DNA from: an uncultured Lachnospiraceae bacterium
GTDB lineage: Bacteria; Bacillota; Clostridia; Lachnospirales; Lachnospiraceae
Direction of reading: 5' to 3'
Assembly: GCA_947652735.1 (NCBI GenBank)
Contig: CANTEG010000012.1
Location: forward strand, 19,440-83,439
Length of the DNA stretch: 64,000 nucleotides
The notes beneath the pieces are model-generated. The model was not told the origin of the DNA. It searched no databases and was given only the letters and a program-made list of their open reading frames with translations. Positions 2,945 to 19,305 of this stretch are shown here, piece after piece; within the stretch, counting starts at the first letter, position 1, and each line of letters opens with the position of its first letter. The position numbers and the translations under genes were made by a program.

Positions 2945-3334
2945 ATGGAAAAAATAACTTCAACAATTAGATTAAGAATGTCTGCGAAGGATGCACATTA
3001 TGGCGGTAATTTGGTGGATGGAGCACACATGGTTCATTTGTTTGGAGATGTAGCGACGGAATTATTGATAAAAGCGGATGGTGATGAAGGACTATTTTGT
3101 GCATATGATGAAGTTACATTTTTGGCACCGGTGTATGCCGGAGATTACATAGAGGCGTATGGGGAAATCACAGAGTTTGGTAATACATCAAGGAAGATGA
3201 AATTTGTGGCAAAAAAGGTGATTGCTGCGAGACCCGACATAAGTCCGTCAGCGGCAGATTTTTTAGAGGAGCCTATTATTGTCTGTACTGCAAGCGGCAC
3301 TTGTGTTACGCCTAAGGATTGTAAGCGTAAATAA
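2945..3334 (+). CDS. Acyl-CoA ammonia-lyase (beta-alanyl/3-aminobutyryl-CoA type), hotdog fold
   Basis: A 129-residue single hotdog-domain protein. Residues 12-23 ([12 protein letters not shown]), the following GDVATEL and DGDEGLF, and [13 protein letters not shown] match the pattern I know from Clostridium propionicum beta-alanyl-CoA:ammonia lyase and from 3-aminobutyryl-CoA ammonia-lyase (Kal) of lysine fermentation. These enzymes add or remove ammonia (or water) across a 2-enoyl-CoA. None of the other lysine-fermentation genes is nearby. The gene sits 11 bases after an acyltransferase and before a methyltransferase in a nonulosonate operon, with AAGGAGG as ribosome binding site. I infer that it may make an amino-acyl-CoA for N-acylation of the sugar. 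A plain thioesterase or hydratase role is the alternative. Confidence 0.75.
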
Positions 3335-4075: not shown

Positions 4076-4855
4076 ATGAAGGTCGTAATTTTAGCGGGCG
4101 GTTTTGGAACACGAATATCTGAGGAGTCAGAATATAAGCCAAAGCCTATGATTGAGATAGGCGGAATGCCCATTTTGTGGCATATTATGAAAGAGTATTC
4201 TGCATATGGTTTTCATGAATTTATAATATGTGCAGGGTATAAGCAGCATATGATTAAAAAATGGTTTGCAGATTATTTTCTTTATACATCAGATATGACC
4301 TTTGATTTCACTCAGGGAAACAAAATGACTATCCACAATCAAAAATCTGAGCCGTGGAAGGTAACAGTTGTAAATACAGGACTGCATACGATGACTGGAG
4401 GACGTATAAAACGAATCAGGTCTTATGTAGGGAATGAAACATTTCTTATGACATACGGAGATGGTGTGTGTGATGTTGATGTTTCTAAGCTGGTTGAATT
4501 TCATAAGAATCACGGAAAAATTGCAACCCTTACATCAGTTATGATGAAGCAGGAAAAAGGTGTGCTTGACATCGGTGGAGATAATGCTGTCCGTTCTTTC
4601 AGGGAGAAAAGTATAACTGACGGAGCGCCTATCAATGCAGGGTATATGGTTTTAAATCCGGAAATATTTGATTATATCAAGGATGATAATACTGTCTTTG
4701 AGCAGGAACCCTTAAGAAAGCTGGCAGAACAGGGAGAATTAATGTCATATTTACATAGGGGATATTGGCAGTGTATGGATACAAAACGTGAAATGGATAT
4801 ATTAGAACGACTATGGGAAAATAATCAGGCACCGTGGAAGAAATGGGAGGATTAA
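4076..4855 (+). CDS. rfbF: Glucose-1-phosphate cytidylyltransferase
   Basis: Makes CDP-glucose from CTP and glucose 1-phosphate, the entry step to CDP-3,6-dideoxyhexoses. The N-terminus VVILAGGFGTRISEESEYKP and the following KPMIEIGGMPILWHIM are the family signature, with the metal-binding TYGDGVCDVDV near residue 125. The 259-residue length matches RfbF/DdhA. I chose the ATG at 4076, which has AAGGAGGG about 10 bases upstream; an in-frame ATG at 4046 adds ten residues not found in the family. The partner genes rfbH (4 bases downstream) and rfbG (14676) are both in the window. Confidence 0.92.
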   Translation: MKVVILAGGFGTRISEESEYKPKPMIEIGGMPILWHIMKEYSAYGFHEFIICAGYKQHMIKKWFADYFLYTSDMTFDFTQGNKMTIHNQKSEPWKVTVVNTGLHTMTGGRIKRIRSYVGNETFLMTYGDGVCDVDVSKLVEFHKNHGKIATLTSVMMKQEKGVLDIGGDNAVRSFREKSITDGAPINAGYMVLNPEIFDYIKDDNTVFEQEPLRKLAEQGELMSYLHRGYWQCMDTKREMDILERLWENNQAPWKKWED

Positions 4856-4858
4856 AGT

Positions 4859-6196
4859 ATGTTTCAGGACAAGACAGAGCAGCAGGCAAAAAATGAAATA
4901 TTAAGCTTGGTAAAAGAATATTGTGATACGTTTCACAATCAAAGAAAGTCATTTGAGCCAGGGGACAGAATTGCATATGCGTCAAGAGTGTATGACTCGG
5001 ACGAAATGTGCAATTTGGTTGATTCTGCATTAGAGTTTTGGCTTACCTCCGGCAGATATACAAATGAATTTGAAAAACAACTTTCCGAATACTTAGGAGT
5101 AAAATACTGCTCCCTTGTAAATTCAGGCTCATCTGCCAATTTACTTGCGTTTATGGCACTTACATCACCTCTTCTGGGGGAAAGGCAGGTGCGTCCGGGT
5201 GATGAAATGATTACGGTAGCGGCAGGATTTCCGACTACGGTTACTCCAGCCATACAATATGGTGTGGTTCCTGTTTTTATTGATGTCACAATCCCGCAAT
5301 ATAACATGGATGTGAGCATGCTTGAGGCGGCATTGTCAGATAAGACAAAGGTTGTGATGGCGGCACATACGCTGGGAAATCCATTTGACCTAAAGGCAGT
5401 CAAAGCGTTTTGTGACAAGCATGGACTTTGGCTGATTGAGGACAACTGTGATGCACTTGGAACAACATATGAGATAGACGGGGAGGTTCGCTATACAGGA
5501 GCAATCGGTGACATTGGAACATCGTCATTTTATCCGCCGCACCATATGACAATGGGAGAGGGTGGTGCCGTGTACACGAATAATCCACTGCTCCATAAAT
5601 GTGTACGCTCTTTTCGGGACTGGGGCAGGGATTGTGTATGTAATCCGGGACAGGATAATATGTGCGGTCATCGGTTTGACGGCAAGTACGGTGAGCTCCC
5701 GTCTGGATATGACCATAAATATGTGTATTCCCACTTCGGCTACAATCTGAAAGCAACGGATATGCAGGCTGCTGTCGGATGTGCACAGCTTAAAAAGTTT
5801 CCGTCCTTTGTGGAGAAAAGAAAAAAGAATTTTGCACGTTTGATGGATGGATTAAAGGGCTGTGCGGATAAGCTGATTTTGCCTGAGGCATGTGAAAACT
5901 CTGACCCGAGCTGGTTTGGATTTTTGATTACCTGTAAGGAGGGTGTTGACCGTAATGTACTTGTCCCTTATCTTGAGGAACGGGGAATACAGACTCGTAT
6001 GTTATTCGCAGGCAATCTGATTAAACATCCTTGCTTTGATCAGATGAGAAAATCAGGAACCGGGTACCGCACAGTAGGTGAGTTAACAAATACAGACCGT
6101 ATTATGAAGGATTCTTTTTGGATAGGTGTATATCCGGGAATGACGGATCAGATGATAGATTATATGGCGGAAACTATAAAAGAGGCTATTAAGTAG
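4859..6196 (+). CDS. rfbH: CDP-4-keto-6-deoxyglucose 3-dehydrase (E1)
   Basis: A PLP- and [2Fe-2S]-dependent enzyme that starts removal of the C3 hydroxyl of CDP-4-keto-6-deoxyglucose. It is a 445-residue DegT-fold protein with the hallmark replacement of the PLP lysine by histidine in FYPPHHMTMGEGG (His near residues 228-229). Cysteines arranged C-x-C plus a third Cys (DCVCNPGQDNMCG, about residues 259-270) fit the family's iron-sulfur site. The normal electron donor, an E3 ferredoxin-reductase-like protein (RfbI/DdhD), is not encoded in the window, so it must be elsewhere or be replaced. The product, a CDP-3,6-dideoxy-4-ketohexose, is the expected acceptor for the TPP enzyme at 8306. Confidence 0.92.
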   Translation: MFQDKTEQQAKNEILSLVKEYCDTFHNQRKSFEPGDRIAYASRVYDSDEMCNLVDSALEFWLTSGRYTNEFEKQLSEYLGVKYCSLVNSGSSANLLAFMALTSPLLGERQVRPGDEMITVAAGFPTTVTPAIQYGVVPVFIDVTIPQYNMDVSMLEAALSDKTKVVMAAHTLGNPFDLKAVKAFCDKHGLWLIEDNCDALGTTYEIDGEVRYTGAIGDIGTSSFYPPHHMTMGEGGAVYTNNPLLHKCVRSFRDWGRDCVCNPGQDNMCGHRFDGKYGELPSGYDHKYVYSHFGYNLKATDMQAAVGCAQLKKFPSFVEKRKKNFARLMDGLKGCADKLILPEACENSDPSWFGFLITCKEGVDRNVLVPYLEERGIQTRMLFAGNLIKHPCFDQMRKSGTGYRTVGELTNTDRIMKDSFWIGVYPGMTDQMIDYMAETIKEAIK

Positions 6197-6286
6197 TGTC
6201 AGCCGTTTGTCATATTTTAATAGAAAGACATGCGAATATATGCTAAACTAGCTGTGTAGGGCAAAATAGAGTGAGGAGACGCCCAT

Positions 6287-6350
6287 ATGGACAACCTAAG
6301 TTTATGATGCGGTGATTGCTAACGGGATTGTAGCATGGAATAGGAAATAA
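6287..6350 (+). other. Possible gene remnant or leader peptide
   Basis: In the 156-base gap after rfbH, a GTGAGGAG motif precedes an ATG that encodes only six residues (MDNLSL) before a stop. Shifting by one base at the stop opens a second stretch, YDAVIANGIVAWNRK, that ends three bases before the next gene. The pair could be the frameshifted stub of a deleted gene or chance. No transposon trace was seen. Confidence 0.2.
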
Positions 6351-6352
6351 AT

Positions 6353-7231
6353 ATGAATAAGATAAAAGTTGGAATCATAGGGACGGGAAATATCGGGACA
6401 GATATTTTAATGAAATTAAAAAGATCAAGTATATTGGAATGTGGAATTTTTGCCGGTCGCAACCCTGATTCAAAGGGAATTCAGCTTGCAAAGAAGATGG
6501 GTGTGCCAACATCGACAGAATCAATTCGGGCAATTGAGGAAAATCCAGATTGTTGCGAAATAGTATTTGATGCAACTTCAGCAACAGTACACAAGCAAAA
6601 TGCACCCATTCTGAGAAGACTGAAAAAATTCGCAATTGATTTGACACCGGCACATGTGGGAAAAATGTGTGTTCCTGTATTGAATTTGGAAGATTGTCTT
6701 TTGTTAGATAATGTAAATCTGATTACTTGTGGTGGGCAGGCAACAATCCCTATTGCAAAGGTTATTAGTGATGTACATCCGGAAACAAAATATATTGAAA
6801 TTGTTGCAACCATTGCATCTAAGTCAGCAGGTCCGGGGACGAGAAATAATATTGATGAATTTACACAAGCAACAAGAGATGCCTTGTCAGAGTTTACAGG
6901 GATTGAACATACGAAGGCTATTATTGTGTTGAATCCGGCAGAGCCTCCTATTACGATGCATAATACGGTATATGCATTGATTGACAACCCGAATATGGAT
7001 GAAATCAGACGTCGTGTACGCGAGATGGAAGCAAAAATTAAGAAATATGTGCCTGGATATTCTATTTTGTTAGAACCAAGCTATGAAAATGGACGTGTCA
7101 CAACGACGCTTCAGGTTGTCGGATTGGGAGATTATTTGCCCAAATACTCGGGTAATTTGGATATTATTACTTGTGCTGCCATTGAGATTGCGGAGTATTA
7201 TGCACGGGAAAAGCTATTAAAGAGGGGATGA
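6353..7231 (+). CDS. mhpF: Acetaldehyde dehydrogenase (acylating), DmpF/MhpF type
   Basis: Interconverts acetyl-CoA and acetaldehyde with NAD. The 292-residue protein has an N-terminal Rossmann motif (GIIGTGNIGTD, residues 8-18), the catalytic-Cys segment ITCGGQATIP near residue 126, and SAGPGTRNNIDEFT, all characteristic of the short DmpF/BphJ family and not of long AdhE-type enzymes. In known systems it forms a channelling complex with 4-hydroxy-2-oxovalerate aldolase, which is encoded 4 bases downstream. No aromatic meta-cleavage gene is present. In this sugar locus the reductive direction (acetyl-CoA to acetaldehyde) is the likelier use. Confidence 0.9.
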   Translation: MNKIKVGIIGTGNIGTDILMKLKRSSILECGIFAGRNPDSKGIQLAKKMGVPTSTESIRAIEENPDCCEIVFDATSATVHKQNAPILRRLKKFAIDLTPAHVGKMCVPVLNLEDCLLLDNVNLITCGGQATIPIAKVISDVHPETKYIEIVATIASKSAGPGTRNNIDEFTQATRDALSEFTGIEHTKAIIVLNPAEPPITMHNTVYALIDNPNMDEIRRRVREMEAKIKKYVPGYSILLEPSYENGRVTTTLQVVGLGDYLPKYSGNLDIITCAAIEIAEYYAREKLLKRG

Positions 7232-7235
7232 TAGA

Positions 7236-8285
7236 ATGAGTAAAATCAAAATATTTGATTGTACACTGCGGGACGGAAATCATGCCTTGAAGCATCAATT
7301 GACGGAAGATAATATTGAAGACTATTGTCTTGCAATGGATGGAAGTGGCGTTTATACAATTATGGTAGGACATGGAAATGGATTAGGTGCTTCTTCTTTG
7401 CAGGTAGGACTGGCACTTTTAGATGAACGTACAATGCTGCAGACAGCAAAAAAAAATCTGGAAAGGACAAAGCTGGGAATATATATGATTCCTGGTTTTG
7501 GAACGATTAAAGATAATCTTGAGCCAGCTATACAAGACGGTGTGGAACTGTTTGAGATAGGATGCCACTGTACGGAGGCAGATACAACGAGAGAGCATAT
7601 AGAGTATTTGTGTAATCGTGGTCTTGAAACATATGGGGTTTTGATGATGTATCATATGGCATCTCCGGAAAAGATTCTTGAAGAAGCACAAAAGATGCAG
7701 TCATACGGAGCAAAGGGTGTAATTTTGATGGACTCAGCAGGTGCCTCGACACCAGAAATGGTTCAGCGTGTTATTGCTTTGTTGGTAGATAATTTACACG
7801 TTCAGGTTGGGTTTCATCCACATAATAATATGGGATTAGCCGTTGGTAATGCATATACAGCAGTTTGTGAAGGTGCCACAATTATTGACGGAACTTTGCG
7901 TGGATTTGGTGCAGGGGCGGGAAATTGTCAACTTGAAGATATTGTTGCGGTACTTGAGAAAACGGGGAAACGGACGGGCATTGACTTGTACAAAATGTTA
8001 GATGCCAGCGATCAGGTAATGCCTGATATCATGGGAACGGAATTTGGACAGGATTCCATTAGTATTGTCAGTGGGCAGGCAGGTGTATTTTCAGCATTTA
8101 AGCTCCATGTGTTGAATGCGGCAAAGGAATTTGGAGTAGACCCAAGAGATATATTTAAAGAACTTGGAAAAAGAAAAGCTGTTGGGGGACAGGAAGATAT
8201 GATTGTGGAGGTGGCAGAGAAACTCTCTTCTCCAATGGGTTCAAGAAATAGTAATGTAAATTATCAGTTGGAATCGTTATTATAG
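7236..8285 (+). CDS. mhpE: 4-hydroxy-2-oxovalerate aldolase, DmpG/MhpE type
   Basis: A metal-dependent aldolase that joins or splits pyruvate and acetaldehyde. It is a 349-residue HMGL-like TIM barrel. The start DCTLRDGNHALKHQ (residues 8-21) carries the catalytic Arg-Asp pair, and FHPHNNMGLAVGNA near residue 195 carries the two metal-binding histidines. A C-terminal communication domain (GSRNSNVNYQLESLL end) is present, as in full DmpG/BphI proteins. Paired with the acylating dehydrogenase upstream, it could make 4-hydroxy-2-oxovalerate from acetyl-CoA and pyruvate. The next gene encodes an enzyme class that decarboxylates 2-oxo acids. Confidence 0.9.
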   Translation: MSKIKIFDCTLRDGNHALKHQLTEDNIEDYCLAMDGSGVYTIMVGHGNGLGASSLQVGLALLDERTMLQTAKKNLERTKLGIYMIPGFGTIKDNLEPAIQDGVELFEIGCHCTEADTTREHIEYLCNRGLETYGVLMMYHMASPEKILEEAQKMQSYGAKGVILMDSAGASTPEMVQRVIALLVDNLHVQVGFHPHNNMGLAVGNAYTAVCEGATIIDGTLRGFGAGAGNCQLEDIVAVLEKTGKRTGIDLYKMLDASDQVMPDIMGTEFGQDSISIVSGQAGVFSAFKLHVLNAAKEFGVDPRDIFKELGKRKAVGGQEDMIVEVAEKLSSPMGSRNSNVNYQLESLL

Positions 8286-8305
8286 ATAAATAGGAGGTTA
8301 TATTA

Positions 8306-10096
8306 ATGAATGTTTCGGAATTTATTTTTGATTTTTTTTCAAAAAAAGGAATTGACACTGCATTTATGGTAACGGGTGGGCAAGCAATGTGGCTGAACGA
8401 TGCCATCGGAAAAAGTGGAAAGTATAATATTATTTGTACACATCACGAGCAGAGTGCAACTATGTCAGCAGATGCTTATGGAAGAATTAAGAATAAACCT
8501 GCATTGGCACTTGTGACGGCTGGTCCAGGTAGTGTGAATGCTATGAATGGAGTAGTAGGCGGATATACAGATTCATCACCAATGATAATTATTTCCGGGC
8601 AGGCTGCTCTTTCATTTGTCCAATATCAGGAGGAAACTAAAATACGTCAGCATGGAGTACAGGGAATAAATATCAAACCATTGGTAGAGAATGTTGTAAA
8701 ATATTTTATAACAATAGATGATGCACAAAAGACCGAATATTATTTGGAAAAGGCATATCAGGAAGCCACATCCGGACGTCCGGGACCGGTATGGGTGGAT
8801 GTTCCGTTGGATATTCAGAATACACAGGTTGACTTGAAATACATGGAAAAATATGATTCTGAAGAAGAGCCTGAAGGCAGAATTGGTTTATTGCAGGCGG
8901 TAAAACATGCATATAAACTTTTAGAGACAGCAAAAAGACCGGTTTTTCTGGTTGGTCAGGGAGTTAGTCTTGCAGGTGCCAGAGAATTATTTTATGAATA
9001 TGTTAACAAGGTTAGAATACCAGTAATTACGGCCAGGTTAGGTATTGATCTTATTGAATCAGATAATGATTTATATGTTGGCAGACCTGGCAACTACGGA
9101 GAGCGAGCAGCTAACTTAGCTATTCAAAATGCAGATGTTATTATTTCCGTAGGCTGTCGTTTGGCATCATCCTTGGTAGGTCATGCTCCGAAAGAATTTG
9201 GTAAGCATGCATATATTTATGTGGTTGACATTGATCAGAAGGAATTGGATAAACCAGGTGTGAAAATTGACTATAAGGTAAAACTTGATTGTAAGGCTTT
9301 CTTTGAAGGGATGAGTAGTAAACTGGCAGAATATTTTCTGCCATCATATGAAGAGTGGATTCAAGTGACTCAAAAATGGAAGAAGAATTATCCTGTATGT
9401 GACCCTGAATATAAGAATCAGAAACCCGTAAATTCATATTATTTTATTGATAAATTATCACAGCTTGCAAAGAATGATGCTGCGATTATGGTAGATACCG
9501 GTTCCTGTTTCCATGTAGCATGTCAAACATGGAAAATAAAAAAGGGACAAAAATATCTGACTACAGGCGGGCTTTCCTCTATGGGTTATTGGTGTGCAGG
9601 AATTGGGGCATGTATGGCAAATGATAGGAAGGAAACAATCGTAATTACAGGTGATGGCAGCCTTCAGATGAATCTGCAGGAATTTGCAGTTATCAAGCAT
9701 AATAATTTGCCAATTAAGACATTTGTACTTAATAACAATGGGTATTTGTTAATACGTCATACCCAACGTAATTTTATGGAGGATCGATTTGTTGGTGAGA
9801 GTCCTGCTTCAGGCGTTTGGTGTCCAGATACGTTAAGGATTGCTGAGGCATACGGAATTAAGGCAGTTCGTATAGAATCTGTTGATGAAATAGACCAAAA
9901 AATAAAGGAAGTATTAGAGTATAGAGGACCTGTGGTATGTGAGGTTATGACCCCGGAATGGCAATTATTGATTCCAAGAATTGCCTCAGATAAGCTTCCG
10001 GATGGAACACTTCGTTCCAGAGATTATGAGGATATGTTCCCTTACCTTGATCCGGAAGAATTGAAAGCTCAGATGGTGGCTGAGAATGAGAAATAA
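8306..10096 (+). CDS. Thiamine-diphosphate-dependent acetolactate-synthase-like enzyme
   Basis: A 596-residue three-domain TPP enzyme of the acetohydroxyacid synthase superfamily. The cofactor-activating Glu is in THHEQSATMSADAYGRI (about residue 49). The TPP/Mg motif runs from GDGSLQMN near residue 450 to NNNGY near 477. The family resembles YerE, which adds the two-carbon unit of pyruvate to C4 of a CDP-3,6-dideoxy-4-ketohexose in yersiniose synthesis (established for Yersinia). Here the gene is flanked by an aldolase pair and the rfbF/H/G genes, so a larger 2-oxo acid, 4-hydroxy-2-oxovalerate, is a plausible donor. Codons 9-14 contain a T8-C-A7 tract that could be prone to slippage. It overlaps the next gene by 11 bases. 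An ordinary acetolactate synthase is possible, but there is no ilv context. Confidence 0.85.
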   Translation: MNVSEFIFDFFSKKGIDTAFMVTGGQAMWLNDAIGKSGKYNIICTHHEQSATMSADAYGRIKNKPALALVTAGPGSVNAMNGVVGGYTDSSPMIIISGQAALSFVQYQEETKIRQHGVQGINIKPLVENVVKYFITIDDAQKTEYYLEKAYQEATSGRPGPVWVDVPLDIQNTQVDLKYMEKYDSEEEPEGRIGLLQAVKHAYKLLETAKRPVFLVGQGVSLAGARELFYEYVNKVRIPVITARLGIDLIESDNDLYVGRPGNYGERAANLAIQNADVIISVGCRLASSLVGHAPKEFGKHAYIYVVDIDQKELDKPGVKIDYKVKLDCKAFFEGMSSKLAEYFLPSYEEWIQVTQKWKKNYPVCDPEYKNQKPVNSYYFIDKLSQLAKNDAAIMVDTGSCFHVACQTWKIKKGQKYLTTGGLSSMGYWCAGIGACMANDRKETIVITGDGSLQMNLQEFAVIKHNNLPIKTFVLNNNGYLLIRHTQRNFMEDRFVGESPASGVWCPDTLRIAEAYGIKAVRIESVDEIDQKIKEVLEYRGPVVCEVMTPEWQLLIPRIASDKLPDGTLRSRDYEDMFPYLDPEELKAQMVAENEK

Positions 10097-11006
10097 GAAT
10101 ACAGGAGTGGTGGTGACGGGTGCAACCAGTATGATAGGGATTGCACTCATTGAAGAATGTGTAAAAAATAATATCCCTGTAGCTGCTATTATACGTCCAC
10201 ATACAAAACGTATCAGTAGATTACCTAAAACAAATTTAATAACAATATATGAGTCGGAACTATGTGAATTGTCAAAAGTTGATATACAATCCGGTTCATG
10301 GGATGTGTTTTATCACCTTGCATGGAGTGACACTGGAAAAGATACAAGAGATAATCCGAATTTGCAGGAAAAAAATATAAAGTATACATTAGATGCTGTG
10401 AATCTTGCAGAAAAGCTGGGCTGTACTACATTTATCGGAGCTGGTTCGCAGGCGGAATATGGACCGGTGGATGGGGTGATTTTTCCGGATACAAAGACAA
10501 ATCCTGTTATAGCATATGGAATGGCGAAGGAAGCTTCCCGTATGCTTAGTTCAAGACTGTGTGATATATATGGGATAAAACATATTTGGGGAAGGATATT
10601 CTCTGTTTATGGGCGCTATGATAATGAGGGAACAATGCTTGTGTATGCAATAAAAAAATTACTATCAGGGGAAATGGCTGAATTTTCCACAGGAAACCAG
10701 CCATGGGATTATCTCAATGAGTATGATGTGGGAAGAGCATTTTATCTGTTAGGCAAAAGTGAGAATGCAAGAGGAACCTATTGCATTGCCTTTGGCAAAA
10801 GCAGGCCTTTAAAGGAATATATTTTGGAATTGGGAGGACAGCTTGGGGCTATTGATAGATTAATATTTGCTGAGCAAGGGGAAAAAAAAGATGTGGGGAT
10901 TCAGGCAAATATTGATAAATTGAAAAGGGATACAGGTTTTGTACCAGAGATTTCTTTTTCGGTTGGAATTCAAAAAATGATTAGTGCTTATAAGGAAAAT
11001 ACATAA
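10086..11006 (+). CDS. Extended short-chain dehydrogenase (sugar-nucleotide reductase/epimerase)
   Basis: A 306-residue NAD(P)-dependent SDR of the epimerase/dehydratase family. It has GATSMIG near residue 11, GAGSQAEYG in the Ser position and the catalytic pair in YGMAKEA (about residues 151-155). It resembles CDP-abequose/paratose-synthase-like reductases. By context it would reduce a ketone on the CDP-dideoxysugar made by the preceding TPP enzyme, the role YerI plays in yersiniose synthesis. The ATG lies inside the end of the TPP gene (11-base overlap), so translation is probably coupled and the two products likely act in sequence. Confidence 0.8.
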   Translation: MRNKNTGVVVTGATSMIGIALIEECVKNNIPVAAIIRPHTKRISRLPKTNLITIYESELCELSKVDIQSGSWDVFYHLAWSDTGKDTRDNPNLQEKNIKYTLDAVNLAEKLGCTTFIGAGSQAEYGPVDGVIFPDTKTNPVIAYGMAKEASRMLSSRLCDIYGIKHIWGRIFSVYGRYDNEGTMLVYAIKKLLSGEMAEFSTGNQPWDYLNEYDVGRAFYLLGKSENARGTYCIAFGKSRPLKEYILELGGQLGAIDRLIFAEQGEKKDVGIQANIDKLKRDTGFVPEISFSVGIQKMISAYKENT

Positions 11007-11064
11007 AAAGATATGTATTTAATAAAGCTTGTATGACAAGAAATAATAAATATAGGAGTGCTTT

Positions 11065-14000
11065 ATGGATAATGGTGCAGCTTTAAAATATGAACAGGGA
11101 ATCGCTCTTTTTGAGGAAGGACACTATGAGGAGGCAGTTGCATGTTTTATTTGTGCATATGAGAGTGGCTATATGCAGGCTGAAATACTTCAGAACATTT
11201 ATAATTGTTTTGGCACCCCTAATATTCAGGAATTTCAGGATAATTATAATGTGACCGGTGTTGAACGATATGGTGTTAAATGTGAGGACACCGTTATTGA
11301 TTTTATTCCAGTTGCAGAATATACATTTTATATCTGGCATAGAAAACAGGAAAAATTTTTAGGACTGCTTGATGTCTCGGATATGAAAAAGCCTGTAAGT
11401 AAAAGCTTTCAAAGCTTATTTATAACTGATAGATGCAATATTGAAGATATGCTGGATTTGTTAACACAGAAAAACTGGAGTCATGTATATATATTGCTTC
11501 AGGGACAGGAGTCAGAGCTTCTTTCCTTTTGTAAGCTGCCACTTTTTTTCACACAGTATTTAAAGGATGCCGTATTTTTCAAATCGGAGGAAGAATTAAA
11601 GTCATATTTTAAAAATAGGGAAAATTATCTTCCGCATAAAATGTGCACTGATAATGAACAATATTATAATGCCTTATTTGATGAAATACATAATGAAAGA
11701 ATTAACGAAATAGGTGAGGAGAGAAATAATATATTCCTGTCTATTTGTGTTCCAACTTGGAACAGAGGTCTGCTGGCACTTGATGCGGTGAAAAATATAT
11801 TGTTATTGTCATATGATGCCGAAATTGAGGTTGTAGTGTCAAATAATGGTTCAGATAAGACAGAAGGTTACGATGAGCTGAAAAAAATCAAAGATTCACG
11901 ACTTCGCTATTACGAGCTTGACAGCAATAAGGGATTTGCTTATAACTTCAGAAATGTACTGGGCAAAGCGAAGGGAAAATTTGTGGTGATGTGCAGTGAT
12001 GAGGATTTATTAAAACTGGATGCATTTCCCCAATATTTAGATTTTCTTAAAGAAAATGACGATGTACGTTTTTTAACTACCAGTGGAGACGGACAAGGGT
12101 TTAAAAAAGATGAAAGCTGTATTTATGAAGAAGGAAGCTTATCTTATAGTGAAGCAATCAATGCAAACTATATTACAGGCGCTACATATAATAACGAATA
12201 TATGAGGAAAAATCAAATTTTAGAAGCGTATGATGAGATGAAGGAACAGGAATTTATTTTTCAGTATCCTCATTGTGCACTTGCTGTTATGGCAGTAAAG
12301 GGTGGAAAAGCAGGTTTTTGCAATATTAATTTATGGACAGCAAAGGAGCCTGAAGAAGCACAGGGTATGTTAGAATATATGAAGCTGGAACATCGTATTG
12401 AGCAACAAAATTATGCTATTTCTTTTTTTTCAAAGATTGTTACTGACCAATTAGAGATAATGGAGATGATATCTATATGGATGTACAAAACATATCATTT
12501 ATTGCGAGCAGGTTTTCAAGGTTCGCCTGAAGTGCACATAGAAAGGTACAACTGGTTGGATGTATGTTTATTGATTTATGATAGCCAGATAAAGCTGATA
12601 AAAGAATATTCGTGGATGCAGGAAGATATAAAAGAAGTGTTAAATGAATTAGCATATAATAATTTTATTGAATTTGCTATGGAAAATCCGGTAAGAAGTC
12701 TTCAGACAGAACAGGAAGCTCATATTCAGAAAACAATGTCCTTGATTATTCAAGAAAAGATAAAACAGGGTGTTTTGCCTAAGGATATTTCAACATTTAA
12801 AATTGAACAGACAATAAAAGAATGCATGTCTGAGAAAAGGGAGATTAGGAAAGATATTATGGATAATGGTGCAACTTTTAAATACGAACAGGGTATCGCT
12901 CTTTTTGAGGAAGGACGCTATGAGGAGGCAGTTGCATGTCTCATTGATGCATATGAGAGTGGCTATATGCAGACCGAAATTATTCAGGATGTTTATAGCT
13001 GTTTTGTCACCCCTAATATTCAGGAATTTCAGGATAATTATAATGTGACAAATGTTGAACAATATGGTGTTAAATGTGAGGACACCGTTATTGATTTTAT
13101 TCCTGTTGCGGAATATACATTTTATATTTGGCATAAAAAGCAGAAAAAATTTTTAGGTCTGATTGACGTAGCAGATATAAAAAAGCCTGTAAGCAAAAGC
13201 TTTCAAAGTTTGTTTATAGAAGATGGATGCAACATCGAAGACACCATAAAATTTCTGACACAGAAAAACTGGAGTAATGTCTATGTCCTGCTTAGTGGTG
13301 AGGACTCAGAGCTTCTTTCTTTTTGCAAGCTGCCACTGTTTTGGGGACAGTATTTAAAGGATGCTGTCTTTTTTAAATCGGAGGAAGAATTAAAGTCTTA
13401 CTTTCAAAACAGTGAAAATTATCTCCCGAAAGAAATATGTGCAGATGATGTACAATATTATAATGATTTATTTGAAGAAATACATAATGAAAGGATTAGA
13501 AAAGTAGGGGGGGATAGAAATAATATATTTCTGTCTATTTGTATTCCTACTTGGAACAGGGGATTGTCGGCGCTTAATGTGGTAAAACATATATTGGCTG
13601 TTTCCTATGATGCTGAGCTTGAGGTTGTTGTGTCAAATAACGGTTCCGACAAGACGGAAGGGTATGATGAGCTGAAACAAATCAAGGATTCCCGTCTGAA
13701 ATATTATGAGTTCGACAGCAACATGGGTTTTGCCTGTAATTTCAGAACTGTGCTTGGTAAGGCAAGAGGAAGATTTGCCGTTACGTGCAGTGATGAGGAT
13801 TTGTTAAATGTAAATGAATTGTCAAATTATCTGGATGTTCTTATTAATAACACAGATGTCAGATTTTTAACTACAAGTGGAGTTGGACCTAATTTTAATA
13901 GCGGGGAAAGTTGTATTTATGAATCGGGATTTGATTCATGCGTTCATGCAATCAATACAAATTATATTACAGGTGCAACATTTAATATTCAGTATATGAG

Positions 14001-14628
14001 AGAAAATAAAATATTTGAAAAATATGATGCGTTAAGTGGACTGGCATTTATCTACTGGTATGCACAGTGTGTTATGGCTGTTGTTACGACAATGGGAGGT
14101 AAAGCAGGATTTTCCAATATTGTATTATGGCAGGAGGGCGGAATAGATAATGAAACCGGAATGCTAAAATATATGAGGCTGGAAAATAGGATTGAGCAAC
14201 AAAATGACGCTGTTGAATTTTGTAATATGGTTTTTGGTAATGATATGAAACTGTTTTTATTAATGATGATTGAGCGCATGAGTAAAACATATTTTTTGTT
14301 AAATGTGGGATTTTACTGTTTACCGAAAGAATTTATGAGTGAATATAAATGGCTGGATGTATGTCTGGCTATTTATGAAAGTCAGTTAGAATTAATTGAT
14401 AAGTATTCAGGTGGGCAGGAAGCAATAATAAAAACATTAAAAGGAATCATTTTTGATGAATTTAGTGAGTATGTGCTGGATAACCCAGTGAAGGACTATC
14501 AGACGGAACAGGAAGGTCTGATACAGGAAAAGGCGGCACTTGTCGTACAGGAAAAAATAAAGGGTGGGCGAATGCCGAAGGATATTTCTACAAAAGAGAT
14601 AGAAGAAGCGATAAAAGCATGTTTATAA
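11065..14628 (+). CDS. Tandemly duplicated TPR plus GT2 glycosyltransferase
   Basis: A 1187-residue protein made of two near-copies of about 595 residues (1-598 and 599-1187). Each unit has a short TPR-like start (EQGIALFEEG-x-YEEAVAC), a linker domain of unknown fold, a family-2 glycosyltransferase domain (FLSICVPTWNRG / FLSICIPTWNRG, then VVSNNGSDKTEGYDEL, then CSDEDLL) and a helical tail (QTEQE...IKQG / IKGG). The second unit starts with its own ATG at 12859 behind GGGAG, so it may be a fusion of two former genes and could also be translated separately. No membrane segment is seen; it probably extends a glycan or modifies a surface protein in the cytoplasm. A G7 tract lies at 13507-13513. 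Confidence 0.8.
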   Translation: MDNGAALKYEQGIALFEEGHYEEAVACFICAYESGYMQAEILQNIYNCFGTPNIQEFQDNYNVTGVERYGVKCEDTVIDFIPVAEYTFYIWHRKQEKFLGLLDVSDMKKPVSKSFQSLFITDRCNIEDMLDLLTQKNWSHVYILLQGQESELLSFCKLPLFFTQYLKDAVFFKSEEELKSYFKNRENYLPHKMCTDNEQYYNALFDEIHNERINEIGEERNNIFLSICVPTWNRGLLALDAVKNILLLSYDAEIEVVVSNNGSDKTEGYDELKKIKDSRLRYYELDSNKGFAYNFRNVLGKAKGKFVVMCSDEDLLKLDAFPQYLDFLKENDDVRFLTTSGDGQGFKKDESCIYEEGSLSYSEAINANYITGATYNNEYMRKNQILEAYDEMKEQEFIFQYPHCALAVMAVKGGKAGFCNINLWTAKEPEEAQGMLEYMKLEHRIEQQNYAISFFSKIVTDQLEIMEMISIWMYKTYHLLRAGFQGSPEVHIERYNWLDVCLLIYDSQIKLIKEYSWMQEDIKEVLNELAYNNFIEFAMENPVRSLQTEQEAHIQKTMSLIIQEKIKQGVLPKDISTFKIEQTIKECMSEKREIRKDIMDNGATFKYEQGIALFEEGRYEEAVACLIDAYESGYMQTEIIQDVYSCFVTPNIQEFQDNYNVTNVEQYGVKCEDTVIDFIPVAEYTFYIWHKKQKKFLGLIDVADIKKPVSKSFQSLFIEDGCNIEDTIKFLTQKNWSNVYVLLSGEDSELLSFCKLPLFWGQYLKDAVFFKSEEELKSYFQNSENYLPKEICADDVQYYNDLFEEIHNERIRKVGGDRNNIFLSICIPTWNRGLSALNVVKHILAVSYDAELEVVVSNNGSDKTEGYDELKQIKDSRLKYYEFDSNMGFACNFRTVLGKARGRFAVTCSDEDLLNVNELSNYLDVLINNTDVRFLTTSGVGPNFNSGESCIYESGFDSCVHAINTNYITGATFNIQYMRENKIFEKYDALSGLAFIYWYAQCVMAVVTTMGGKAGFSNIVLWQEGGIDNETGMLKYMRLENRIEQQNDAVEFCNMVFGNDMKLFLLMMIERMSKTYFLLNVGFYCLPKEFMSEYKWLDVCLAIYESQLELIDKYSGGQEAIIKTLKGIIFDEFSEYVLDNPVKDYQTEQEGLIQEKAALVVQEKIKGGRMPKDISTKEIEEAIKACL

Positions 14629-14675
14629 ATAGTCATCCACATGGGCTGATATTCAATGGATTGTGAGGATAAGAA

Positions 14676-15740
14676 ATGGATAATAATTTTTATAAAAATA
14701 AAACTATATTGGTGACGGGGCATACAGGGTTTAAGGGTGCATGGATGTGTAAGCTGTTACAAATGCTTGGAGCAAATGTGATTGGTTATGCATTAAAGGC
14801 ACCAACGGAGCCTGCTATATTTGATTTGTGTAATATTGCAGACGGTATGGTTTCGGTTTTGGGAGATGTACGAAACAAAGAGCTGCTTCGTGAAGTGTTT
14901 CAACAGTATAAACCTGAAATTGTAATTCACATGGCAGCACAACCCATAGTGAGAGAGTCGTATGTCAATCCTGTATATACATATGAGACAAATATAATGG
15001 GAACCGTGAACGTTCTGGAAAATGTGCGAATGACACCATCCGTGAAGTCAGTTGTAAATGTTACAACGGACAAGGTATACAAAAACAGAGAATGGGCTTG
15101 GGGATACAGGGAAGACGATGAGTTAAATGGTTATGACCCATATTCAAACTCAAAATCCTGTTCTGAGCTTGTGACGGGCAGTTATATTAATTCGTTCTTT
15201 TTGGAGCGTGATATCGCAGTTTCCACTTGCAGGGCAGGTAATGTTATCGGTGGAGGCGATTTTGCAGTGGATAGAATTATTCCTGACTGTATACGTGCGG
15301 TAGAAAATAACAAAAACATAATCGTGCGAAACCCGTATTCAACACGTCCGTATCAACATGTGCTTGAACCTGTCGCGGCATATCTTATGGTTGCGAGAAA
15401 GCAGTATGACGACAAAAAGCTGGCAGGGAGTTATAATGTAGGACCATCTGATGAGGACTGCTATACAACAGGTGAGCTTGTTTCCTTATTTTGCGATGAA
15501 TGGGACAGACACACAGGTACAAAGCCTGTATGGGAAAACCGAAGTGAGGGCGGTCCACATGAGTCAAACTTCCTGAAGCTTGACTGCTCAAAAATAAGAA
15601 ATACGTTTGGCTGGAAACCGGTATGGGGTGTAAGACAAGCAATGGAAAAAATTGTTGAGTGGAATGTAAGTTACCTGAATAAGGGCGATGTAACGGGGTG
15701 TATGGAAAAGCAAATTGAGGAATATCTGGCAAATGTATAG
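14676..15740 (+). CDS. rfbG: CDP-glucose 4,6-dehydratase
   Basis: Converts CDP-glucose to CDP-4-keto-6-deoxyglucose, the substrate of RfbH. The 354-residue SDR protein has GHTGFKGAW (residues 15-23), HMAAQPIVRESY, NVTTDKVYKNREWAWGY and the catalytic YSNSK near residues 155-159, a combination specific to CDP-glucose dehydratases. It lies 8.5 kb downstream of rfbF and rfbH on the same strand. The usual rfbFGH order is broken by the aldolase/TPP block and a glycosyltransferase, which suggests that those genes were inserted into, and work with, the CDP-sugar pathway. Confidence 0.92.
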   Translation: MDNNFYKNKTILVTGHTGFKGAWMCKLLQMLGANVIGYALKAPTEPAIFDLCNIADGMVSVLGDVRNKELLREVFQQYKPEIVIHMAAQPIVRESYVNPVYTYETNIMGTVNVLENVRMTPSVKSVVNVTTDKVYKNREWAWGYREDDELNGYDPYSNSKSCSELVTGSYINSFFLERDIAVSTCRAGNVIGGGDFAVDRIIPDCIRAVENNKNIIVRNPYSTRPYQHVLEPVAAYLMVARKQYDDKKLAGSYNVGPSDEDCYTTGELVSLFCDEWDRHTGTKPVWENRSEGGPHESNFLKLDCSKIRNTFGWKPVWGVRQAMEKIVEWNVSYLNKGDVTGCMEKQIEEYLANV

Positions 15741-15755
15741 TTAAGGGAGAAATAT

Positions 15756-18041
15756 ATGAAACTGGACATTTTAATAGCTGTTGCCGAAAAAGGCGGCGTG
15801 GAAAATGTAATAAATGATACTGTACCATATTTGCAGCAACAAGGGGTCTTGGTTCGTATTGTCCAAATTATATGGGAGGGAACACCCTGGGCAGATTCAG
15901 GGATACCATTTTATCATCTTATAAATGGCAGGGATATAAGTACAAGCAGGGACATGATAAATTCATATAAGGAATTTCTTCAGGAGACATATGTTCCTGA
16001 TACGATTCTTGCCACAGTATGGCCGTTAATGAGTTATGTGGGGAAAAATGCGGTATCTGAGTTAGGGTGTCCGCATGTAAATATTATTTCGTGGCTGCAC
16101 CATGCACCAATTATCAATTATGAGATCTCAGGCTTTGGAGGATTTGAGGAGCTTAAGATGGCAGATGGTCATATAGCTATAAGTGAGATGATATATACTG
16201 AAATAAAAGAAAAGCTGCCTGATGTGCAGATATGCAGAGTGAATAATCCTGTTGATATCGAAAAGTATTCATGTAAGTGTGAAGCTGATATAAGCGATAT
16301 TCATAAGCTGTGTTATGTGGGTCGCATCAGTGCGCAAAAGCGGTTAGATATCATAATAAAGGCATTGGAGATATTGGGTTCCGCTTACGAACTTTCTATC
16401 ATTGGATCAGATTCATATGAATATGCGGAGGAGATAAAAAAGCTTGCATTGGATTTGGGTGTGGAAGACCGTATAACATGGCATGGCTGGCAGTCAGAAC
16501 CATGGTGTGTTGCAAAAGAGTCAGATATTATAATAATGTCATCCGATGTAGAAGGATTTCCGTTAGTTGCCATTGAGGCATTGGCAAATGGACTGCCTGT
16601 TGTGACAACACCTGCCAGTGGAATTGAAGAATTGGTACGTGACGGGGAGAATGGATATATATATCCTTTTGGTGATTACGAAAGTCTTGCGCGTATTATA
16701 AAGGATATAAATGATGGCAGGAAGCTTATGCCATCTGCGGATATGTGCCGCCAGAGTGTGCAAAAACATAATCGCAGCACAGCAGTGAAAGGCTTTTGGA
16801 ATGAATTAAGCAGGCTCGTTGATGAGATTGAACCACAAAAGGCGGTCAATCATGCAAGGAGGCAGAAAGAGGCGGTCATAGAATGGAATAAAAAATATTT
16901 GGAGGCAGAAAGGCAGTATTTAAGCAAGGCTGATAAGTTAATTAGGGAAGGAACCGCTGATGCATACGAAAAAATTTGCGGGATGTTTGAGGGAACCGAA
17001 GGAATGTCTGTTGATGAAATTATTGATGCCGGAAAAATTCCGATTAATATTTTTAAGGGAAGAACAGAGATTTCATATCTGATTCAGGCTGTAAACATAT
17101 ATTACAGAGAGCAGGAGGCGGGAGACTGCGTTACTGTTTTTGATCATGGCGAGAGTTTTTTGGATGTTATGGATGTTATTAACCAGGTGAGGTTTTTGTT
17201 GTGGGAGCTGGAATTTTTTAAAAGTGATGAGGCTCTTGTCGAATATTTAGGAAATAACAACATATCCGCCAGTATGTTGTCATATTTGGCAGAACCATGT
17301 ATTAAGGAGCTGCGTAAAACGGCATCAGTGAACCGTTATGAACAGGCTGATAAGGATTTAAAACGTCATGCAGGAAAAAAGGTTGCATTTATTATGTGTG
17401 TCAATAATGATGTTTATATGCAGGAGGCATTGTACTTTATAAATAATCTGGAGGTTCCTTATGGATGTGAGGTAGAGATTTTTACAATCGAGGATGCAAA
17501 AAGTATGACATCAGGATATAACGAGGGCATGAATGCGTCAAATGCAAAATATAAAGTGTATCTGCATCAGGATGTGTTTATAGTAAATCCGTATTTTATA
17601 TATGACATATTGGATATCTTTGAAAATCCTGATGTGGGAATGATAGGCGCTGTAGGTTTTGCTGAGCTGTGCGGCTTTGCAGAAAATCAGGTGTTGGGTT
17701 TTTGGAGGGAAACAGGTAAAATTTACAGTGCAAATGCTTATGGAACAGGCTTATGTAAATTTGGACAAATGTCTGCCGAATATGAAAGCGTGGAGGTTGT
17801 TGACGGGGTGTTGATGGCAACACAATATGATATACCGTGGCGTGAGGACCTGTTTGACAAATGGGACATGTATGACATGTCTCAAAGTATTGAATTTCAC
17901 AGAGCAGGCTATGATGTGGTAATTCCAAATGTGAAGCTGCCGTGGTGTCTGCATGATGAAGGGTTTGTGAATATGGTTCATTACTACGAAGAACTTGACA
18001 AGCTTAAAAAGGAATATTTTTCTGATGGCGTAGGTTGCTAA
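15756..18041 (+). CDS. Bifunctional glycosyltransferase (GT4 domain plus GT2-like domain)
   Basis: A 761-residue protein. Residues 1-360 form a GT-B, family-4 type transferase (YVGRISAQKRLDIIIKAL near 188; SDVEGFPLVAIEALANGLPVV near 265, including the EX7E-like motif). After a helical linker, the last 220 residues resemble a glycosyltransferase-like A-fold domain (VAFIMCVNNDVYMQEAL, then SGYNEGMNASNAKYKVYLHQDVFI with the HQD metal site). Two sugars may thus be added by one polypeptide. It starts 16 bases after rfbG behind GGGAG. Acceptor and donor are unknown; the island context points to a surface or flagellin glycan. Confidence 0.75.
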   Translation: MKLDILIAVAEKGGVENVINDTVPYLQQQGVLVRIVQIIWEGTPWADSGIPFYHLINGRDISTSRDMINSYKEFLQETYVPDTILATVWPLMSYVGKNAVSELGCPHVNIISWLHHAPIINYEISGFGGFEELKMADGHIAISEMIYTEIKEKLPDVQICRVNNPVDIEKYSCKCEADISDIHKLCYVGRISAQKRLDIIIKALEILGSAYELSIIGSDSYEYAEEIKKLALDLGVEDRITWHGWQSEPWCVAKESDIIIMSSDVEGFPLVAIEALANGLPVVTTPASGIEELVRDGENGYIYPFGDYESLARIIKDINDGRKLMPSADMCRQSVQKHNRSTAVKGFWNELSRLVDEIEPQKAVNHARRQKEAVIEWNKKYLEAERQYLSKADKLIREGTADAYEKICGMFEGTEGMSVDEIIDAGKIPINIFKGRTEISYLIQAVNIYYREQEAGDCVTVFDHGESFLDVMDVINQVRFLLWELEFFKSDEALVEYLGNNNISASMLSYLAEPCIKELRKTASVNRYEQADKDLKRHAGKKVAFIMCVNNDVYMQEALYFINNLEVPYGCEVEIFTIEDAKSMTSGYNEGMNASNAKYKVYLHQDVFIVNPYFIYDILDIFENPDVGMIGAVGFAELCGFAENQVLGFWRETGKIYSANAYGTGLCKFGQMSAEYESVEVVDGVLMATQYDIPWREDLFDKWDMYDMSQSIEFHRAGYDVVIPNVKLPWCLHDEGFVNMVHYYEELDKLKKEYFSDGVGC

Positions 18042-18107: not shown

Positions 18108-19280
18108 ATGGGTATTAATTTGTCTAAAGTAAGCAATAGTATTCGGGGATTGATAAACCGCAATGATTTATCTTTGCAGGACGTAGATAAAATCAATACA
18201 CTTATGCAGCAGGTGAATAATATTTTGTTTCACAATCCCACGCTTAAATTTCAGGTGTTCCATGATTGTACAATATTAGAAGGACTGGAGGCATTCCGCA
18301 GTGAGACAGAATGCATCTTAAAGATTTGGAATGATTTTGAAGTCTTAAGTGCAGGAAATTACGCTAATAAACAGTTTGCGGAGATATATGGTTTTTTTAA
18401 ATATGTAGACCCTGAAATAATTTATGAAAGAGTTGTTTCTCATTTTGAAAGCTTATCAATGGATATAAAGGAACAATTTGTGCGTGTGCGTAAAGGATAC
18501 CTTTTCATAAATGAGAAGCTTGATTATAGGGATAACGATTATTCATTAATCAAGCAGCATGTTGATGTTATGTGTAATAGGGTTGAGGATTATAAGTGGT
18601 TATACAACCGTTTGGGTGACTGGCGCTCTAGGGTTATTCTAAATGAAATTATTACCTATTGGTTCAGATTTGATTTGGATAGACTATGGAATTTGCAGGA
18701 AAATATTTTCCCGGAGTACTATGATGTGGATTTAATATCATGTAATTCGGAGGAGGTGTTTGTTGACCTGGGTGCATATATTGGGGACTCTACCATAAAT
18801 TTTATTGATGCATTTGGTACCTATAAAAGAATATACAGTTATGAGCTTGCTCCGGGAACTTATAAGCAATTGGAGGCAAATTTGTCAGGAATAGCTAATA
18901 TTACTTTGAAAAATAAGGGTGTGGGTGACAGAAACGAAACAATCTACATAGAGGATACGGAGCTTGAAGTAGGCAATAGCATTGCAAGGAAGGGGAATTG
19001 CCCTGTAGAGCTTGTAACCTTGGATGATGATATCGATGAGCCTGTTACATGTATTAAGATGGATATTGAGGGGGCAGAAAAAGAGGCTCTTTGTGGTGCC
19101 AGAAATCATATAATAAATGAAAAACCAAAACTGCTCATATGTGCATATCATATTCCGGAAGATATTTTTGATATTCCAAGAATTATTACGGATATGAGAG
19201 ATGATTATAAGTTGTATTTGAGATATGATGGGAAACCAGGTTTGATATGGCCATGTGATTATGTTTTATATGCGATATAA
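18108..19280 (+). CDS. FkbM-family methyltransferase, copy 1
   Basis: A 390-residue protein. The N-terminal 200 residues are helical and of no family I recognise. The C-terminal part is an FkbM methyltransferase: EVFVDLGAYIGDST (motif I, about residue 218), YELAPGTYKQLEANL, and IKMDIEGAEKEALCGA with the conserved DxEGAE. It is paralogous over its whole length with the next gene, including the first seven residues, so the pair arose by tandem duplication. FkbM enzymes O-methylate sugars and polyketides; in glycan islands they usually cap or decorate sugars. It probably acts in the cytoplasm. Confidence 0.8.
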   Translation: MGINLSKVSNSIRGLINRNDLSLQDVDKINTLMQQVNNILFHNPTLKFQVFHDCTILEGLEAFRSETECILKIWNDFEVLSAGNYANKQFAEIYGFFKYVDPEIIYERVVSHFESLSMDIKEQFVRVRKGYLFINEKLDYRDNDYSLIKQHVDVMCNRVEDYKWLYNRLGDWRSRVILNEIITYWFRFDLDRLWNLQENIFPEYYDVDLISCNSEEVFVDLGAYIGDSTINFIDAFGTYKRIYSYELAPGTYKQLEANLSGIANITLKNKGVGDRNETIYIEDTELEVGNSIARKGNCPVELVTLDDDIDEPVTCIKMDIEGAEKEALCGARNHIINEKPKLLICAYHIPEDIFDIPRIITDMRDDYKLYLRYDGKPGLIWPCDYVLYAI

Positions 19281-19305
19281 AACCTAAGAGAGGAGTATGC
19301 AGAAC

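Follow-up and report, generated by a model that had tools for sequence, protein, structure and literature searches.

A stretch of 64,000 nucleotides of contig CANTEG010000012.1 (GenBank assembly GCA_947652735.1), hereafter the window, was analysed from an uncultured Lachnospiraceae bacterium with a genome of 2.77 Mb. At 4076..15740 it carries a gene cluster in which three CDP-3,6-dideoxyhexose genes bracket an acylating acetaldehyde dehydrogenase (AcDH), a 4-hydroxy-2-oxovalerate (HOA) aldolase, a YerE-like thiamine diphosphate (ThDP) enzyme and a short-chain dehydrogenase/reductase (SDR). A first-pass annotation of the same DNA had named these seven genes as a candidate pathway for a ten-carbon, C4-branched sugar of the erwiniose type, and all seven were found in place, in frame and on the plus strand. 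The CDP-sugar genes are rfbF/ddhA, for a glucose-1-phosphate cytidylyltransferase (4076..4855; TIGR02623, 371 bits against a cut-off of 300), rfbH/ddhC, for the CDP-6-deoxy-4-keto-hexose 3-dehydratase that removes O3 (4859..6196; NF011936, 725 bits, cut-off 423), and rfbG/ddhB, for CDP-glucose 4,6-dehydratase (14676..15740; TIGR02622, 441 bits, cut-off 278). The RfbH motif HHMTMGEGG has histidine where the Schiff-base lysine usually stands.

Between rfbH and rfbG lie the AcDH gene (6353..7231; MhpF/DmpF type; TIGR03215, 392 bits, cut-off 282; PF09290) and the gene for the HOA aldolase (7236..8285; MhpE/DmpG type, in a sugar-linked form; TIGR03217, 364 bits, cut-off 286), which includes the DmpG communication domain. 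In the predicted direction of their reactions, this pair places the source of an erwiniose-type donor, 4-hydroxy-2-oxopentanoate, within the cluster itself (6353-8285). The YerE-like ThDP carboligase (8306..10096) has all three ThDP domains, a GDGS motif at residue 449 and Glu48; it scored 363.7 bits with TIGR00118, under the cut-off of 538.35, and its best solved relative is the structure 8rph. An extended SDR (10086..11006; PF01370) follows. Only 4 bases separate AcDH from the aldolase and 20 bases the aldolase from the ThDP gene, whose stop is overlapped by the start of the SDR gene; this tight spacing fits the expectation for a single operon. Between the SDR and rfbG stands a gene that the first-pass annotation did not mention, encoding a two-copy GT2 glycosyltransferase of 1187 residues (11065..14628, plus strand; PF00535 in two stretches), which is a candidate for transferring the branched sugar.

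We consider it very probable, from the sequence evidence set out below, that the operon makes a CDP-linked ten-carbon sugar, branched at C4 and with the erwiniose skeleton, for a surface glycan. In the proposed pathway, RfbF would form CDP-glucose, RfbG would dehydrate it to the 4-keto-6-deoxy sugar and RfbH would remove the C3 oxygen. In parallel, AcDH is predicted to convert acetyl-CoA to acetaldehyde, which the paired aldolase would join to pyruvate, giving 4-hydroxy-2-oxopentanoate, probably as the 4R acid. The YerE-like enzyme is predicted to decarboxylate this acid and transfer the resulting four-carbon acyl group to C4 of CDP-4-keto-3,6-dideoxyhexose, and the SDR, in a YerF-like role, would reduce the newly formed ketone to a 4-C-(1,3-dihydroxybutyl)-3,6-dideoxyhexose. 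Gene content, gene order, enzyme family, phylogeny, co-occurrence and the presence of the same set in Pectobacterium atrosepticum were computed here; the substrates, the 4R stereochemistry, the role of the SDR and the final product in this organism are inferred. Erwiniose itself cannot be told from a stereoisomer by sequence.

Against solved structures, the window ThDP enzyme scored 403 bits with 8rph (JanthE), 246 with 5ahk, which we take to be PpYerE, and 237 with yeast acetohydroxyacid synthase. The low 5ahk score weighs against a YerE-like grouping; 5ahk was the outgroup in the first tree, where its own position is not informative. In three trees the window enzyme grouped with YerE-like enzymes and apart from acetohydroxyacid and acetolactate synthases, with full support for the split in two of them, which is the placement that the first-pass annotation had anticipated. 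The ThDP gene also adjoins the CDP-3,6-dideoxyhexose genes rfbF, rfbH and rfbG, as expected of a YerE-like enzyme. An identity as acetolactate synthase was rejected, given the TIGR00118 score below cut-off and the position in the trees; among the matches listed (best 25 of 53 families), acetolactate synthase models were all below their cut-offs. Within the YerE-like enzymes the window enzyme lies in a clade of ten rows from nine genomes (support 100/98), all ten of which stand directly or closely beside a sugar-type aldolase. Eight of the ten also have AcDH on their contig; the two rows from genome G253 start in the aldolase at a contig end. A tblastn search of plasmids with the window enzyme returned 1570 records, every one below 60% identity; the 10 matches listed comprise 7 with an acetolactate synthase annotation and 3 without any feature.

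The same gene set was found in P. atrosepticum. A search of 394 genomes, from the order of an Aeromonadales metagenome-assembled genome, gave ThDP matches (E up to 1e-75) in five, among them G381, which is P. atrosepticum (the first 20,000 bases of one contig match plasmid CP036162.1 at 100%). Its locus, L183, runs in the order ddhD-like reductase, rfbF, rfbG, rfbH, HpcH-type aldolase, ThDP enzyme, SDR, AcDH, HOA aldolase and SDR. The name DdhD for this reductase is our assumption; a domain search found NAD/FAD oxidoreductase domains in it. With the L183 ThDP enzyme as query (E up to 1e-75), G381 gave two matches, the enzyme itself and one at 33%, the latter of a kind present in most genomes of the genus, one of which (L190) groups with acetolactate synthases. 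Because no other YerE-like gene was found in G381, we take the L183 enzyme to be ErwE by elimination rather than by matching it to the published sequence, and a more distant YerE-like gene would escape this cut-off. Among 25 genomes of the genus, the L183 enzyme occurred in two (100% and 96%), and a third genome, G649, has another YerE-like enzyme (33%) without the AcDH/aldolase pair. Megablast of L183 against plasmids gave no match, nor did megablast of L244 against phages. Like the window, the P. atrosepticum cluster unites rfbFGH, a YerE-like ThDP enzyme, an SDR, AcDH and HOA aldolase, and its aldolase carries the same F291 change (see below); unlike the window, it includes a DdhD-like gene and an HpcH-type aldolase gene, its gene order is different and its host is not a member of the Lachnospiraceae.

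In the available text of a 2025 review (PMC12247030, citing Steitz et al. 2022), ErwE of P. atrosepticum is reported to form erwiniose from a hydroxy-2-oxo acid, and the statement in the first-pass annotation that no biosynthesis had been described for this skeleton is out of date because of that report. As summarised there, ErwE prefers 4-hydroxy-2-oxo acids, with pyruvate left unused, and the acceptor used in vitro was a substrate analogue. Erwiniose is described as a ten-carbon branched sugar in the exopolysaccharide side chains of P. atrosepticum (PMC8657720, in part), and 8rph as JanthE, which takes 4-hydroxy-2-oxovalerate with benzaldehyde (PMC12188165, in part). The kind of pathway proposed for the window is already known from P. 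atrosepticum.

JanthE, from Janthinobacterium sp. HH01, is the best solved relative of the window enzyme; unlike the latter, it has CDG for GDG in the ThDP motif and belongs to a different YerE-like branch. Its nearest rows in the tree, L282 and L283, join it at 100/100 and adjoin the same AcDH/aldolase pair. These two loci come from small genomes of the gammaproteobacterial class sample described below (G1240 and G1346, 1.5-1.6 Mb). Two of the three aldolase-linked ThDP lineages hold an enzyme reported to take 4-hydroxy-2-oxo acids. Caryophyllose differs from the proposed sugar in its branch of six carbons. By description only, its YerE-like enzyme MMAR_2332 resembles the predicted window enzyme in being linked to a long hydroxylated branch and in an ErwE-like donor preference (PMC12247030, in the text available).

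We surveyed how far the pair and the carboligase occur together. YerE-like genes (E up to 1e-85) were present in 55 of 250 Lachnospiraceae genomes, and 58 further stretches read around such genes included 39 with an rfbF, rfbG or rfbH cluster member and 32 with a homologous SDR. PF09290, the AcDH domain, was found in two of the 250, one being the window's genome, where the operon's copy is the only one. This rarity, and the return of the same neighbours in distant relatives, speak for more than a chance arrangement. A ThDP scan of named genomes, from which the best 80 loci were kept (L093-L172; coverage is incomplete), placed the closest enzymes at L093 (73% identity) and L094 (56%), and these two alone among the 80 have a sugar-type aldolase directly upstream of the ThDP gene; L168 and L172 have weak aldolase-superfamily matches of 25-26%. 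The gene set is retained in the nearest ThDP relatives: the order at L093 is rfbF-rfbH-AcDH-aldolase-ThDP-rfbG and at L182 rfbF-rfbG-rfbH-AcDH-aldolase-ThDP-SDR. The L094 contig begins inside the aldolase, and contig L181 of the same genome holds rfbF, rfbG and rfbH and then ends in AcDH.

With the aldolase alone as query, a class sample centred on G400 (360 genomes, which we take to be Gammaproteobacteria) gave 26 copies in 25 genomes at E up to 1e-50, and the phylum of an Endomicrobiellum carrier (255 genomes searched) gave 11 copies in 8 genomes. The sugar-type form, recognized by F291, was present in 3 of the 25 and in all 8. Two of these 11 genomes were known from ThDP searches; in each of the nine new ones, AcDH, rfbF, rfbG, rfbH and YerE-like matches all lie in the same stretch, some of them weak (rfbH 32% in L282 and L283; rfbG 31-34% in L284, L285 and L290). 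The Y291 copies (23 in 22 class-sample genomes) had no ThDP or rfb match above 80 bits in their short flanks, and likewise none was seen around the seven that were read with 20-kb stretches. In a sample of the window's phylum, PF09290 occurred in 43 of 398 genomes, its own included, and of the places inspected (30 short flanks and 15 longer ones, two of about 3 kb, partly overlapping) L233 alone has a ThDP gene, the product of which falls on the acetolactate synthase side of the tree. In total, 16 genomes carry the sugar-type aldolase, part of them found through the ThDP gene and nine independently of it. Fifteen have AcDH, rfb genes and a YerE-like gene nearby (in G253 over two contigs), a co-occurrence that the first-pass annotation had proposed as a check, and the sixteenth, G029, has a different ThDP enzyme. 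The pair travels with the window's ThDP clade across Bacillota, Elusimicrobiota and Gammaproteobacteria. The meta-cleavage hydratase DmpE (TIGR03220) had no match in any of the seven genomes tested, the window's own included, and matched one of 14 control genomes.

The pair itself has a separate form. Cys126 of AcDH, which we take to be the nucleophile, is conserved in 7/7 sugar-linked and 33/33 other rows, and the window aldolase retains R17, D18, H21, H200 and H202 (DmpG numbering), presumably with the catalytic roles that they have in DmpG. Two active-site positions are changed in the window aldolase, Y291 to F and L88 to Y. Position 291 is F in all seven sugar-linked aldolases versus Y in all 33 others, and position 88 is Y or H in the former versus L in 33/33 of the latter. 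Where the columns are present, the newly found sugar-type aldolases combine F291 with Y, H or F at 88; the Y291-type aldolases of the class sample have L at 88, and once I. Sugar-linked aldolases also have smaller residues in place of F at position 139, and position 90 (BphI L89) remains I or L. In a tree of 40 rows (1 partial and 8 redundant rows, plus six duplicate or partial loci, having been dropped) the seven sugar-linked aldolases lie on one side of a branch with support of 100/100, and the AcDH tree agrees with this split (Shimodaira-Hasegawa-like approximate likelihood ratio test, SH-aLRT, 99). Enlarging the aldolase tree by 25 rows, with 15 of the 23 Y291 class-sample copies taken in, left 17 sugar-type and 48 other rows across one branch (SH-aLRT 99). 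These aldolase trees are midpoint-rooted, so that calling one side of the branch a clade presupposes a root outside that side, and both they and the signature count omit L200, the G718 locus from the phylum search.

The changed residues suggest a stereochemical prediction. With BphI numbering taken as DmpG minus one (Tyr-290 for Y291), BphI makes or uses the 4S acid only, its Y290F variant loses stereocontrol, and the L87N/Y290F and L87W/Y290F variants are active on the 4R acid and inactive on the 4S (PMC3962088, in part). In sequence, the natural sugar-type aldolases resemble these engineered 4R enzymes. Because no sugar-type aldolase has Asn or Trp at BphI position 87, 4R specificity is a prediction. 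Erwiniose is 3,6,8-trideoxy-4-C-[(R)-1-hydroxyethyl]-D-gulo-octose, a formula for whose configuration we found no source; in it, C7 is R by our own Cahn-Ingold-Prelog assignment and would derive from C4 of the donor. A 4R aldolase product would fit R at this carbon. No configuration for erwiniose was found in the available text of the literature searched by chemical name, including PMC9912281 and PMC9671505. In the literature on O-antigen or rfbH, the name of the HOA aldolase was absent among the matches listed.

Three other explanations of the operon were weighed against an erwiniose-type pathway. In yersiniose A synthesis the sugar is likewise branched at C4 and then reduced, and we know of no AcDH/aldolase module in that pathway. 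YerE resembles the predicted window enzyme in its CDP-4-keto-3,6-dideoxyhexose acceptor and ThDP carboligation, and is unlike it in favouring pyruvate as donor and in a chain transfer restricted to short donors (PMC12247030, in the text available). The window ThDP enzyme might similarly use pyruvate and add a two-carbon branch, with AcDH and the aldolase serving another purpose, and it is true that most of the YerE-like loci seen lack the pair: neither AcDH nor a close HOA aldolase match was present in any of the 58 Lachnospiraceae stretches (L032-L089), and an AcDH match was absent from 79 of the best 80 loci (L093-L172). We regard such a two-carbon product as unlikely, however, the aldolase gene being directly upstream of the ThDP gene, the pair travelling with the ThDP clade across phyla, the aldolase being of a separate form with changed active-site residues, and ErwE leaving pyruvate unused (PMC12247030, in part). 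Slightly less probable again is that the pair makes some other 4-hydroxy-2-oxo acid, for example from propionaldehyde, leading to a longer or different branch. ErwE does take 4-hydroxy-2-oxobutanoate and 4-hydroxy-2-oxohexanoate as further donors and BphI accepts propionaldehyde too (PMC12247030 and PMC3962088, each in part), and the loss of F at position 139 and of L88 in sugar-linked aldolases points the same way; set against this, position 90, to which the aldehyde chain points, is still I or L, and the dehydrogenase scores as an acetaldehyde dehydrogenase. Aromatic degradation is the best-known setting of AcDH and HOA aldolase, and automatic models name the ThDP enzyme acetolactate synthase, though under cut-off. 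That the pair is a meta-cleavage remnant which reached a glycan operon by accident, or that the carboligase is an acetolactate synthase, is nevertheless highly improbable: a DmpE match is absent from the window's genome, one branch splits sugar-type aldolases from 48 other rows, the listed acetolactate synthase models are below cut-off and in the ThDP trees the split between the two groups is fully supported. The remnant was rejected on the TIGR03220 result in the seven genomes.

The erwiniose-type chemistry put forward in the first-pass annotation is supported by the ThDP tree, by the co-occurrence in 15 of 16 genomes, by the same gene set in P. atrosepticum and by the donors reported for ErwE and JanthE. 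Several observations weigh against it. The window ThDP enzyme and the P. atrosepticum L183 enzyme are of different sub-lineages and only 37% identical, and the positions that distinguish the window clade are mostly absent from the P. atrosepticum enzyme. In each of the two careful ThDP analyses, 0 of 200 bootstrap trees had a single clade of all aldolase-linked enzymes. The HpcH-type aldolase gene in the P. atrosepticum cluster leaves the source of its donor unproved, and with the P. atrosepticum RfbH reductase as query no DdhD relative was found in the window's genome, in a search made without a positive control. Among loci L032-L243, DdhD-like reductase matches occurred only in the P. atrosepticum locus and that of its relative. 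Since identity with the L183 enzyme is 37% and no bootstrap tree has the single clade, the donor preference of the window enzyme may differ from that of ErwE. The L183-enzyme set, which includes three rows without the AcDH/aldolase pair, joins the window clade at 93/78, and on the larger ThDP tree the aldolase-linked label requires three changes. An approximately unbiased test on six rows of the smaller ThDP tree did not reject a single clade (p 0.224).

The sixteenth genome with a sugar-type aldolase, G029, also from the Lachnospiraceae, offers a variant. At L092:3768-12858 its AcDH and aldolase, 67% and 64% identical to those of the window, are followed by E1 alpha- and beta-like ThDP subunits, with reading frames that overlap or touch; in the enlarged aldolase tree, the G029 aldolase falls inside the sugar-type set as the neighbour of the window aldolase (97). 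G029 gave no YerE-like match at E up to 1e-85. Its E1 subunits are weak matches to pyruvate dehydrogenase, and we infer their function from gene position alone. Upstream of the pair lie two GDP-mannose dehydratase-type genes, a further NAD-dependent epimerase and a DegT-family enzyme whose best matches are perosamine synthetase structures (213 bits, compared with 195 for RfbH-type and about 170-175 for ColD, nearly full length); it has His where the aligned perosamine synthetase has Lys, and we read it as a probable ColD/RfbH-like 3-dehydratase. L092 is a candidate system for a long, four-carbon C-branch on a GDP-sugar. A four-carbon donor here would be new, because the E1-type two-subunit ThDP class is reported to appear specialised for two-carbon branches (PMC12247030, in the text available). 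A broader claim, on which we are evenly divided, is that the AcDH/HOA-aldolase pair is dedicated to sugars, of single origin and 4R-specific (Y290F with an aromatic residue or His at L87, BphI numbering), and serves as an exchangeable donor cartridge for at least three YerE-like lineages plus the two-subunit enzyme of L092.

Beyond P. atrosepticum, what appears to be new is a carrier in the Lachnospiraceae, the occurrence of the set in several phyla, a distinct form of the aldolase together with the stereochemistry predicted from it, and the variant at L092. By prediction, erwiniose-type sugars extend from a plant pathogen to Lachnospiraceae, to the phylum of the Elusimicrobiota carrier and to small gammaproteobacterial genomes, and such clusters can be searched for by their aldolase signature, F291 combined with Y, H or F at 88. 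The sugar-type aldolase would be a natural counterpart of an engineered stereochemical switch, and L092 points to long C-branches on GDP-sugars, a combination not described in the available text of the review (PMC12247030).

Directly after rfbG, the window has a gene for a glycosyltransferase with GT1 plus GT2-like domains (15756..18041, plus strand; PF00534 and PF13712), which may belong to the pathway. Two adjacent similar genes, presumably for FkbM-type methyltransferases of 390 and 392 residues, lie at 18108-20475 as an apparent tandem duplication. Upstream of the operon, 2945-3334 encodes a 3-aminobutyryl-CoA ammonia lyase family protein (NF052388, 194 bits, cut-off 160); it adjoins nonulosonate-type genes, an epimerase (362-1558) and a hexapeptide acyltransferase (2283-2933), and is a possible source of an unusual N-acyl group.

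Other neighbours recur beside YerE-like genes in the Lachnospiraceae stretches. A 540-residue HMGL-like aldolase (L042:6730-9001) belongs to a protein cluster present in 21 of the 58 stretches, in 11 of which a phosphoglycolate-phosphatase-like HAD protein accompanies it; it is a candidate for supplying polyhydroxy donors of greater length, built from pyruvate and a phosphorylated aldehyde. At L067:5152-7721 and other loci there is a recurring trio: an AMP-ligase-like protein, a second protein from the same cluster as the first, and a protein of about 406 residues for which no Pfam or NCBIfam family matched within the limits applied. Finally, a span of about 35 kb in genome G104 holds three YerE-like genes (L055, L083 and L084), a hint that this organism makes several branched sugars.

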